IMG/VR virus record: IMGVR_UViG_3300032236_000923
Location: 1 to 47,558 of that record
DNA from: a virus
Length of the DNA: 47,558 nt
Direction: 5' to 3' (one strand)
Under the pieces are notes generated by a model, which was not told the DNA's origin, did not search any database, and saw only the letters and a list, made by a program, of their open reading frames with translations. A program made the position numbers and the translations under genes. Shown here piece by piece: positions 19,858-24,854 of this stretch. Position 1 is the stretch's first letter. Each line of letters begins with the position of its first letter.

Positions 19858-20823
19858 ATGGATAGTTTCTTATTTATCGGCGATTACGCCAAACAGATTG
19901 AAGCAAACACCCTTACTCAATTAACAGGTGGTAATACTTCTATTTTACAAGGTGTACAACGTGCAGCCGTAGAGGAGTGTATTAGCTACCTAAAACAGAA
20001 ATACGATACTACGCTAGAATTTGAAAACACCACACAACACAATAGGTCGTTATCCTATTTAGCCGAAAATACAGTTTACTTAAATGCTAATACTTACGAC
20101 CAAACAGCTACATACGCTATAAATGCTTACACGCTTTACAATGGCAGCGTTTATCAATGCTCTACAGCTATAACTATACCCGAAGCTTTCAACCCTACTA
20201 AATGGGCTTTATTAGGCTTGCAGTATGATTTATACAATGCTGTTGTTCCTTACCCAATATTCAATATTTACAACTACTACAATATTGGCGATAAGGTATT
20301 TTGGCGCAATAGCACTTACACTTGTAAGATTGCCACACAAGCTATTAATCACGATGCAGCATTGGCGATAGGGCAAGCAATAGACTATAATGTTATTAAT
20401 GTGTTTCCTGATGACAAATATAGCGGTGTGCAATATTGGGGAACGCCAACAGCGTACACCGTACCCGCTAACACTTCATTATTGAATACTACATATTGGG
20501 CTAATTTTGATAATCGTGACCAAAAATTATTAATGGTTTGTGTTGCAATTGCGTTATATCATTTGCATTTTAGAATAAGCCCAAAGAACATCCCCGATGC
20601 AATTATTCACCGATATATAGGTGATAGTTCGGATAGATACAGACATGAAGATAGAATACTTTACCCTACTTATTCCGCGTTAGGATGGTTACAAGCTGCA
20701 AACATTGGGACAGACATAACCCCCGAATTACCACTACTACAACCAAGACAAGGCGCAAGGCTTCGATTCGGAGGTCATGTAAAATTAAATAATACCTATT
20801 TTCACAACGCATTTACGATATAA
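19858..20823 (+). CDS. DUF1320/gp36-like head-tail connector with inserted CBM-like modules
   Basis: 321 residues. The start (about 1-60, with TQLTGGN and AAVEECISYLKQKY) and the end (about 220-270, LMVCVAIALYHLHFRI) look like the two halves of Mu gp36/DUF1320 connector proteins. Between them lie two segments like CBM5/12 carbohydrate-binding modules: NAYTLYNGSVYQCS...W (about 90-122) and YNIGDKVFWRNSTYTC...YW (about 142-218). It should sit at the head-tail joint. The inserts may be surface-exposed decorations. The assignment as connector is moderate. Confidence 0.6.
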   Translation: MDSFLFIGDYAKQIEANTLTQLTGGNTSILQGVQRAAVEECISYLKQKYDTTLEFENTTQHNRSLSYLAENTVYLNANTYDQTATYAINAYTLYNGSVYQCSTAITIPEAFNPTKWALLGLQYDLYNAVVPYPIFNIYNYYNIGDKVFWRNSTYTCKIATQAINHDAALAIGQAIDYNVINVFPDDKYSGVQYWGTPTAYTVPANTSLLNTTYWANFDNRDQKLLMVCVAIALYHLHFRISPKNIPDAIIHRYIGDSSDRYRHEDRILYPTYSALGWLQAANIGTDITPELPLLQPRQGARLRFGGHVKLNNTYFHNAFTI

Positions 20824-21383
20824 TGAGGGCAAAAGATAAAAATATATCATACGTATATTCGCACACTAGAATTGATACTAATCAAATCTTTTATATTGGT
20901 GTAGGTACAGGTAGGAATTATTATAGGTCAAGAGAAAAAGAAAGAAGAAATGAGCATTGGAATAGAATTGTTAATAAAACAGATTATTTAATAAATATTT
21001 TATTTGATAACTTATCATTTGAAGATGCTTGTAAAAAAGAAATTGAATTAATTTCATTATATGGCAGAGTAAATAATAATACAGGTATTCTTTGCAATCA
21101 AACAGACGGAGGAGACGGCACAAAGGGAGTAATAGTTAAAGAAGAAACTAAGTCTAAACTAAAAGGATTGAATTTAGGTAGAAAAGCAACAAAAGAAGAA
21201 AGATTGCTAAAAAGCATTAATGGGGTCATAGGTTGGGAAAAAAGAAGATTAACAAACAAAACAATAAGTAATAATAAACCTATTTTATGTTTAAATAATA
21301 GTAAAGAATATATTTCAGCAGGTAAAGCAGCTAAAGAATTAGGCTTGTCATGCGGGAATATATCTATGGTAGTTAATGGGTAA
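20823..21383 (+). CDS. GIY-YIG homing endonuclease, 3' end frameshifted
   Basis: 186 residues. GIY-YIG domain at about 8-95 (SYVYSHTR, then IFYIGVGTGRNYYR), a NUMOD3-like basic segment (about 110-140) and the start of a NUMOD1 domain (SAGKAAKELGLSCGNISMVV, about 161-180). The frame stops at VNG. Further on, at 21398-21421, another frame codes KGFNFKFI-stop, the usual NUMOD1 end. So a net one-base loss probably truncated the gene. Distinctly AT-rich. Free-standing mobile gene between connector and portal. Confidence 0.8.
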   Translation: MRAKDKNISYVYSHTRIDTNQIFYIGVGTGRNYYRSREKERRNEHWNRIVNKTDYLINILFDNLSFEDACKKEIELISLYGRVNNNTGILCNQTDGGDGTKGVIVKEETKSKLKGLNLGRKATKEERLLKSINGVIGWEKRRLTNKTISNNKPILCLNNSKEYISAGKAAKELGLSCGNISMVVNG

Positions 21384-22758: not shown

Positions 22759-23035
22759 ACAATGGAACGCAAAAAGATTACAGACTAAAGATTATAAGTT
22801 ATTCCAAAAGGGGTTAATGGATAATCCTCAAATATTACTAGAACAACAAAAGAAGTTTGAGAGGTCATTTGGAATAAATTCATCCGTACGCAATAAAGAA
22901 CAATGGAACAATCTTGTAAGAGTTTACGGGATTGAAACTGTAATGAAAACAGAAGCATTGACAAAAGAAGAAGTTGAGCAAAGATGTAAAGAGACGTTTG
23001 GAGAACGATTAAAAAGACAAATGAAAGATGCCTAA
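22745..23035 (+). CDS. Hypothetical protein, 96 aa
   Basis: Basic helical protein overlapping portal (14 bases) and minor head gene (8 bases). Its place suggests a head-morphogenesis accessory protein. No known motif. Confidence 0.6.
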   Translation: MNIIKQWNAKRLQTKDYKLFQKGLMDNPQILLEQQKKFERSFGINSSVRNKEQWNNLVRVYGIETVMKTEALTKEEVEQRCKETFGERLKRQMKDA

Positions 23036-24854
23036 AGAACCTAAAGTTAAATATTCAGACGAGCAGATACAAGAACTGTTAAAGGGATTGTATGACGGTA
23101 GTATTGATGAATACAATATCCCCGAAAGCCTTTATCTTGCTACTGCTGAATATTTAATGAAAGCGGTTGAATTAGGATTTGAAGATTTTGAGGGTAAGGA
23201 TATTGAACTGTTCAATGAACTAAGGGAAAACGTTTATATGTTTTCCGCTGCTAAAACCTTTCAGCAATTACGTGACATTGGAAGTTTGATGTTTGACGAA
23301 GATGGCAATAGGGTTAGTATAAATGAGTTTAGTAAATTAGGCGAAGAAAGATTCGACACGTGGAATGATGATTGGGGACGTACTGAATACAATACAGCCG
23401 TAGCAAGTGCAACGACAGCCGTTAAATGGCAAGAAGTTGAAGATAATAAGGATGTATTACCCGTTCTTTCTTATTCTACTATTGGTGATGCTTGCGATAT
23501 TTGTGCACCATTGGACGGATTAACTGCCAGTGTGGACGATGCTATTTGGAACACGCTAACACCTCCGAACCATTTTAACTGTTTTAAAAATGGGACAAAA
23601 ATATTAACCAAAAACAAATGGGTTAATATTGAAACAATAAAAAAAGGAGATTTAGTTATTAGTGGGGGAGGTATAGAGCAAAATGTTTTGGGAGTCCACA
23701 TTAATACTTTTGATGGCGAATTGAGGCAAATCAATATCAAAAAAGAAACCATTTCGGCGACCAAAAATCATGGTTTCCTCACCTTTAATGGGTGGAAGGC
23801 TGCCGATGATTTGACCGTTAATGATATATTGATACAAAATATTGAAGGTTCCTTTATCAATAAACTTATTTGTACAATAAATAATACGTGTGTTATTTTG
23901 ACATATTTGTTTATGCCTATCATAAACAACATTAGAAATTTTGTGTTGGCATTCAATACCCAAATTATAATCGGGCAAATAAATATCTATAAATCTTCCA
24001 TTAACAAGTTCATTACCAATACACTTGACACTTTTAGATTGAAGAAAATCAAAAACAATTTGCTCACGTTTAGTAAGTTTATTGTGATACATATTTCGTC
24101 TTTTAGGTTCTTTATTATACGTTTCAATAGTTTTTTTATTAGCTTTTTCTCTTACGCTAATATCAAACATGGGGTTATTAATTTTCATTCTTTCAGAAGC
24201 ATCGGGGCGAGAACATCCGAGAGCAGGATTAGACCACTTTCTAACTTCTTTCAATTTATTAGAAGTATTGATTTTCCTTTTGTCATTATTAATCCATTGC
24301 AATTTTACGGATTCGCTACCCTTTCTATATTTGAACCCGTATTCTTTCATAAGTTTAGGCAAAATTCTATTGGAAAAGGAATATATTTTCCTCATTTCAT
24401 TAAGGGAAAGCATATCAACAAAATGTCTTTTGTAAATGGCTTCACGGCAGGGAATCCCCTCAATTGCTTCAATTCTTTGTTTAGTTTCAAGTTGCACTCC
24501 TTTTTTCATCGTAGATTTGTTTTAATTAAAAGTATTAAAAATGAATTATACACAGGGCAAATATACAACTTGTCGGTGAATAAAGACGAAACATACATTA
24601 CAAATGTGTGTGTTGTTCATAACTGTTTATGTGTCGTAACACAACATAGCGATGATAAGGAATTAACACCTAAAGGAGAAAAGAATATTACTTTTGAGCA
24701 AGTAGGTAAAGAAATGGATGATACTTTTAAATATAATCCGGGCAAAGAAAAAGTTATATTCAGCGAAGACCACCCATATTTTCAAGTACCGAAAGAAGAT
24801 GTTAAATTTGCGGAAGAAAACTTTGGGTTGCCTATCCCCGAACATAAAAAGTAA
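23028..24854 (+). CDS. MuF/SPP1 gp7-type minor head protein interrupted by an intein
   Basis: 608-residue precursor. Residues 1-184 and 533-608 form the minor head protein. It has the family signature DACDICAPLDG (about 158-168), and after splicing PPNHFN joins CLCVVTQ, the conserved PPxHxxCxC metal-binding end of MuF/gp7 proteins. Residues 185-532 are an intein placed exactly at the first Cys of that motif. The spliced protein is 260 residues. It works in head assembly beside the portal. Uninterrupted relatives have no such insert. Confidence 0.85.
   Translation: MPKEPKVKYSDEQIQELLKGLYDGSIDEYNIPESLYLATAEYLMKAVELGFEDFEGKDIELFNELRENVYMFSAAKTFQQLRDIGSLMFDEDGNRVSINEFSKLGEERFDTWNDDWGRTEYNTAVASATTAVKWQEVEDNKDVLPVLSYSTIGDACDICAPLDGLTASVDDAIWNTLTPPNHFNCFKNGTKILTKNKWVNIETIKKGDLVISGGGIEQNVLGVHINTFDGELRQINIKKETISATKNHGFLTFNGWKAADDLTVNDILIQNIEGSFINKLICTINNTCVILTYLFMPIINNIRNFVLAFNTQIIIGQINIYKSSINKFITNTLDTFRLKKIKNNLLTFSKFIVIHISSFRFFIIRFNSFFISFFSYANIKHGVINFHSFRSIGARTSESRIRPLSNFFQFIRSIDFPFVIINPLQFYGFATLSIFEPVFFHKFRQNSIGKGIYFPHFIKGKHINKMSFVNGFTAGNPLNCFNSLFSFKLHSFFHRRFVLIKSIKNELYTGQIYNLSVNKDETYITNVCVVHNCLCVVTQHSDDKELTPKGEKNITFEQVGKEMDDTFKYNPGKEKVIFSEDHPYFQVPKEDVKFAEENFGLPIPEHKK
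23652..24509 (-). CDS. Vsr/PD-(D/E)xK-like homing endonuclease, antisense inside the intein
   Basis: 285 residues. A helix-turn-helix-like segment at about 25-60 (SLNEMRKIYSFSNRILPKLM) and a NUMOD3-like NNPMFDISVREKANKK (about 111-126) precede the nuclease at 145-213. The nuclease has Glu149, FIDIYLPDYNLGIECQ (173-188, Asp175 and Glu186) and YDRHK (196-200). This pattern resembles Vsr-like/EDxHD homing enzymes. Codon boundaries coincide with the sense intein frame, so TTA, CTA and TCA codons are excluded. About 70 C-terminal residues lie antisense to the N-terminal splicing domain and may be non-functional. Confidence 0.82.
   Translation of the reverse strand: MKKGVQLETKQRIEAIEGIPCREAIYKRHFVDMLSLNEMRKIYSFSNRILPKLMKEYGFKYRKGSESVKLQWINNDKRKINTSNKLKEVRKWSNPALGCSRPDASERMKINNPMFDISVREKANKKTIETYNKEPKRRNMYHNKLTKREQIVFDFLQSKSVKCIGNELVNGRFIDIYLPDYNLGIECQHKISNVVYDRHKQICQNNTRIIYCTNKFIDKGTFNILYQYIINGQIIGSLPPIKGEETMIFGRRNGFFFDIDLPQFAIKSINVDSQNILLYTSPTNN
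24558..24565 (-). promoter_or_regulatory. TATATTTG box for the antisense endonuclease
   Basis: On the minus strand TATATTTG lies within the block F coding sequence, 48 bases before the endonuclease ATG at 24509. It is the same box used before other genes in this phage. The -33 element is unclear. Confidence 0.5.

Follow-up and report, generated by a model that had tools for sequence, protein, structure and literature searches.

The stretch analysed here, hereafter the window, is the 47,558-nucleotide IMG/VR virus record IMGVR_UViG_3300032236_000923, in which the gene for a MuF-type minor head protein is interrupted by an intein carrying, on its opposite strand, an open reading frame (ORF) for a predicted homing endonuclease. 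The head-protein gene is one continuous plus-strand frame of 608 amino acids, intein included (23028–24854), which matches both Phage_Mu_F (Pfam PF04233, E 1.4e-8) and Intein_splicing (PF14890, E 4e-11), while the PHROG family phrog_19194 covers its residues 15–186 (E 4e-42). The N-extein (23028–23579) ends PPNHFN, the intein (23580–24623, 348 amino acids) runs from Cys185 to His531-Asn532, and the C-extein (24624–24854) begins Cys-Leu-Cys, its +1 cysteine being Cys533. These residues, together with TKNH in block B, are the splice residues of a class 1 intein, and the NCBIfam profile TIGR01443 (intein_Cterm) scores over its cut-off on the insert.

An AlphaFold model of the sense intein, built on an alignment with five viral inteins, was confident (pLDDT ∼90) in two places: the Hint N-terminal splicing part (intein residues 1–89; 23580–23846), which includes the block B stretch TKNHGFLTFNGWK, and the Hint C-terminal splicing part (residues 311–348; 24510–24623), which carries YNLSVNKDETYITNVCVVHN and the TIGR01443 match. 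Compared with the Protein Data Bank (PDB) using Foldseek, the model matched intein splicing domains (best E 3e-6). Residues 90–310 had pLDDT below 50; they correspond to a sense linker at 23847–24509, whose last base is the first base of the antisense ATG, and no endonuclease or other domain could be recognised in this disordered segment. Eight viral contigs with an intein-free homologue of the head protein (59–73% amino-acid identity in the best segment) read NHFN/CLC uninterrupted (the slash marks the insertion point throughout), so the element is exactly bounded. On its profiles, splice residues and modelled fold, the insert is a complete class 1 intein, predicted to splice. An earlier sequence-only reading of this DNA had claimed a complete class 1 intein in a MuF-type minor head protein, with no endonuclease in its sense middle; both points are upheld here, and the comparison with intein-free alleles that it had suggested yielded the exact empty site.

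On the minus strand of the intein lies an ORF of 285 amino acids (23652–24509; ATG at 24509, TAA at 23654–23652), which is matched by PHROG 3339, 'homing endonuclease' (E 2e-8). It contains a NUMOD3-like segment, SERMKINNP (24171–24197, minus strand), in which S-RMK-NP is invariant across nine aligned endonucleases, and a Vsr-like PD-(D/E)xK nuclease domain at residues 139–235 (23805–24095, minus strand). The AlphaFold model of this protein was poor at the N-terminus and confident over residues 144–231 (pLDDT mostly 74–92 from residue 141 to 230), which form a PD-(D/E)xK core; the best PDB match was the catalytic domain of I-Bth0305I (3r3p; E 1e-4, Z 11.1, 89 residues at 2.9 Å), with Vsr itself (1cw0) at Z 10.3. 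Among the EDxHD residues, Asp175 (23985–23987) and Glu186 (23952–23954), both read from the minus strand, occupy conserved alignment columns; the DG..H stretch of the relatives is not conserved. We predict from these matches that the ORF encodes a NUMOD3/PD-(D/E)xK homing endonuclease. The sequence-only reading had named both the Vsr-like catalytic type and the NUMOD3-like segment, in agreement with our results, and endonuclease homologues do exist, in PHROG 3339, in the I-Bth0305I fold and in the homologous in-frame endonuclease of another MuF intein (locus L025, below). Its assignment of all 285 codons to the gene stands for the open frame but probably not for the protein: the endonuclease proper probably ends near 23805, and the last ∼50 codons overlie the Hint-N region and may be read-through.

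Codon boundaries on the two strands coincide ((23652 − 23028) mod 3 = 0), and ∼660 bases code for two proteins. Both frames can be open because in this phase the sense stops correspond to TTA, CTA and TCA codons of the endonuclease, which synonymous leucine and serine codons can replace. The 18 leucine codons of the endonuclease are 8 CTT, 8 TTG and 2 CTC, with neither TTA nor CTA, and TCA is absent from its 17 serine codons; elsewhere in the window TTA and CTA make up 49% and 13% of leucine codons and TCA 20% of serine codons. Given the endonuclease protein and the codon usage of the other window genes, the probability of no sense stop is 3.9e-10 over the full ORF; for the linker by itself it is 1.4e-7, with ∼10.8 stops expected and 0 found. 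Here the antisense codon-aligned open run is 289 codons; among the other window genes tested, the longest is 82. The coincident boundaries, the avoidance of the three codons and the prevalence of TTA elsewhere had all been pointed out in the sequence-only reading, and the counts bear them out. GC content by codon position is gene-like in the antisense frame (0.36/0.30/0.24, compared with 0.43/0.37/0.28 for the genome) and reversed in the sense linker, from which we infer that the endonuclease gene came first and that the linker is the frame overprinted on it.

The layout is not unique to the window, being present in cultured Vibrio and Gordonia phages. One of these is Vibrio phage 1.266.O: the intein of its MuF-like gene, whose only annotation is 'hint domain protein', holds an endonuclease of the DUF559 type (E 1.9e-10) in antisense, with codons aligned. 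Phage 1.082.O has the same element (98% amino-acid identity in the endonuclease) and phage 1.265.O a diverged form of it (51%). The probability of an open sense frame given the endonuclease protein is 3e-7 in 1.266.O and 5e-6 in 1.265.O, and AGGAG and GGAGG, respectively, stand ∼7 nucleotides upstream of the antisense ATG. Six Gordonia phages (Barsten, SchottB, Sitar, Lennon, Nordenberg and Thing3) have a nuclease of another type antisense in a MuF intein, codon alignment having been checked for Barsten and Nordenberg. This Gordonia ORF gave no Pfam match; it matches phrog_5046, labelled HNH endonuclease (E 1.7e-15), shares a LAGLIDADG-like motif with I-MsoI, and has homologues that stand free of any intein in Caulobacter phages and cyanophages. 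Whether in the window, in Vibrio or in Gordonia, the insertion point is the MuF H-x-N/C site or its equivalent. Searching phages by tblastn with the window endonuclease returned nothing at E 1e-3, the Vibrio case appearing only when E up to 10 was allowed; scans with the window intein alone or the Vibrio endonuclease alone, and two scans of genome contigs, gave no relatives, and a plasmid search gave one weak match.

The third position of an endonuclease codon is the first of a sense codon, so opposite substitution patterns are expected of the two frames. Between Barsten and Nordenberg, over 150 endonuclease codons, we counted 9, 4 and 43 substitutions at endonuclease positions 1, 2 and 3 (P 1e-6, position 3 over position 1), with identities of 94% for the endonuclease and 70% for the sense frame. 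Between 1.266.O and 1.265.O the counts were 84, 62 and 115 and the identities 54% and 38%, respectively. This relation is reversed over the last ∼34 codons of the Vibrio pair, which cover Hint-N (35% identity for the endonuclease, 41% for the sense frame); the endonuclease proper therefore stops short of the end of the ORF. The gathering of substitutions at endonuclease third positions in both groups argues for protein-level selection on the antisense frame; judged by this pattern, that frame is under such selection in the Vibrio and Gordonia relatives.

The Vibrio phages also provide alleles with and without the intein. Phages 1.266.O and 1.082.O share 98.4% identity in the intein, 88% in the N-extein and 80% in the C-extein, and sister V. 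breoganii phages (90–93% DNA identity) match only as far as the empty site, which in the three sisters read there is HPN/CRST without an intein. Intein-plus and intein-minus alleles, with a homogenised intein between diverged flanks, indicate at the level of sequence that the element homes in Vibrio. The Vibrio MuF inteins (L011 and L014) follow an extra alanine codon (HPNA/C and HWNA/C) that the empty alleles lack, and splicing would therefore leave a one-residue scar. Extra genes stand beside MuF in the sister phages (L035, 3274–4008; L036, 3147–3857 and 5005–5658), encoding a DNA methylase, a DNA-binding-domain protein and an unknown product, suggesting that this region is an insertion hot spot.

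Overprinting of an intein by an endonuclease also occurs on the same strand. Eight inteins of helicase, clamp-loader and terminase genes contain a NUMOD3/DUF559 endonuclease that is out of frame with an open intein frame (L016, 2159–2947; L017, 2309–2953; L018, 2237–2974; L023, 2301–2915; L027, 2896–3453; L029, 2812–3627; L030, 2851–3648; L032, 2866–3450). The helicase inteins of Vibrio, Corynebacterium and Pseudomonas among them (L016–L018) had been considered as in-frame fusions and were rejected as such, their endonucleases lying in another frame of the same strand. All eight have one phase, in which the intein codon begins at endonuclease codon position 3, although the cases are mutually related and do not amount to eight independent trials; in the five that were simulated, 7–28 intein stops were expected and 0 are present. 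In three of the five alternative phases, certain amino-acid pairs make a stop in the other frame unavoidable for every choice of codons, and most of the 12 endonucleases could not be encoded in those three without amino-acid changes. The two phases without a forced stop, one antisense with aligned codons and the other on the same strand with endonuclease position 3 as the start of the intein codon, are exactly those observed in overprinted inteins. The MuF intein of L025 (1627–3864), at the equivalent site, has its NUMOD3/DUF559 endonuclease in sense and in frame; since this protein is homologous to the window endonuclease (tblastn E 1e-7), orientation differs between relatives. The clamp-loader gene of L030 (1086–4316) appears to have two inteins, one at the P-loop (..SGC..HHN/CGKTT) without an evident endonuclease and one with the out-of-frame endonuclease. 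On balance we favour the view that antisense codon-aligned homing endonuclease genes (HEGs) are a recurrent, undescribed intein architecture that emerged at least twice at one MuF site, with nucleases unrelated to each other (the Vsr/DUF559 and LAGLIDADG types), and that they and the same-strand out-of-frame HEGs obey one rule, being confined to those two phases, out of five, that can accommodate any protein with no forced stop in the intein.

For the window, we are confident that the element is a mobile class 1 intein in a phage MuF gene with its HEG antisense and codon-aligned inside it. Sense translation would give one precursor, in which Hint-N and Hint-C would assemble and splice in cis around a ∼220-residue segment acting as a passive loop; the minus strand would separately yield the NUMOD3/PD-(D/E)xK endonuclease, which would cut intein-free MuF alleles at HFN/C, and repair from the intein-bearing copy would install intein and HEG together. 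Antisense placement could, we conjecture, allow the endonuclease to be made outside the late period of head-gene expression. Both frames, both predicted folds, the exact empty site and the codon avoidance are established for the window, as are selection on the antisense frame for the Vibrio and Gordonia relatives and a patchy distribution for the Vibrio element. Several points weigh against our reading. Splicing, minus-strand expression, cleavage and homing are inferred; the window endonuclease is divergent, with no Pfam match even at E 10, and is missing the DG..H signature of its relatives; promoter-like sites near its gene are no more frequent than by chance, and its ATG has no clear Shine-Dalgarno sequence. 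No close allele with the same intein was found for the window, so the case for selection on the antisense frame is drawn from the relatives; among these, the support from the Vibrio substitution counts is modest (P 0.017, position 3 over position 1), and in the high-GC Gordonia phages chance alone could account for the open sense frame (P 0.14–0.27).

The missing Pfam match of the window endonuclease, and the want of a close homologue in the phage collection, are what would be expected if the antisense ORF were dead or fortuitous and the element a mini-intein whose junk linker merely resembles an endonuclease on the other strand. We think this improbable in view of the PHROG homing-endonuclease match, the I-Bth0305I fold and the NUMOD3-like segment, the 289-codon run (82 in the next gene) with its gene-like codon profile, and the selection seen in Gordonia and Vibrio on the frame that corresponds to it. 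Less probable again is a split intein, in which insertion of the HEG parted an N half from a C half, each being produced on its own and the two joined by splicing in trans; fractured split-intein loci with separate EDxHD/Vsr-like endonuclease genes have reportedly been described (by Dassa and colleagues in 2009), yet the window halves are not on separate ORFs, avoidance of TTA, CTA and TCA (P 1e-7) would be needless for trans-splicing, and the Vibrio sense frames too stay open across the antisense gene, against the low chance probabilities given above. The window being an IMG/VR virus record, an assembly error or chimera in a metagenomic contig might be suspected, but isolate phages, three of Vibrio and six of Gordonia, have this architecture in their genomes too, which argues that it is no such artefact, and we give this explanation hardly any weight. 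Just as implausible is removal of the insert as RNA, by a group I or group II intron with an incidental Hint resemblance: HEGs are frequent in phage introns, but the window has no Rfam intron match, the sole hit being a chance snoRNA (E 0.4), and the insert has Hint N and C parts with class 1 splice residues and a confident predicted fold.

An intein and its endonuclease are usually regarded as one fused protein, expressed together. In the antisense arrangement, the mobility gene is no longer tied to the late head gene around it, and its product could appear at a different time or in a different amount. The window case also illustrates the way in which an HEG can invade a frame that has to remain open, and the phases that allow this. 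The Vibrio and Gordonia intein genes have no annotation beyond hint-domain, coil-containing or capsid protein, and an intein recorded as a mini-intein, or as one that has lost its endonuclease, may therefore still carry one in another frame or on the other strand. A second homing-endonuclease-like gene of the window (20823–21383, plus strand), just upstream of the portal gene, matches phrog_314 (E 1.7e-14) and is I-HmuI NUMOD-like at its C-terminus.

In the literature we searched, an antisense endonuclease within an intein was not described, although an earlier description is possible: PMC11855218 cites a 2025 preprint (Gosselin) on actinobacteriophage inteins with 'non-canonical architecture', which, to go by that citation, may cover the Gordonia cases. 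Canonical bifunctional inteins such as PI-SceI, and the intein of L025, have in common with the window the Hint fold, the class 1 splice residues and an endonuclease between Hint-N and Hint-C; however, canonical endonucleases are fused in frame, whereas that of the window is a separate protein from the opposite strand over a sense linker without a domain. Fractured split-intein loci are said to resemble the window in having a separate endonuclease gene between the intein halves, but the window intein is one continuous frame that overlaps its HEG base for base. The catalytic domain is like that of the EDxHD/Vsr-like I-Bth0305I in fold, and a NUMOD-type modular DNA-binding segment is likewise shared; I-Bth0305I is grouped with group I homing endonucleases (PMC3943268), whereas the window gene sits inside an intein, antisense. 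The ShiLan domain, a hidden out-of-frame HNH endonuclease in an actinophage methylase, similarly has an HEG overprinted on a frame that must stay open and a patchy distribution, but lies on the same strand, and its authors found no self-splicing domains, so it is not an intein (PMC11855218); the window HEG is antisense and accompanied by splicing domains. Also close are the eight same-strand HEG inteins described above, in which the same broad endonuclease family is overprinted on the linker with both frames open, and which differ from the window in strand and in that the intein codon begins at endonuclease position 3.
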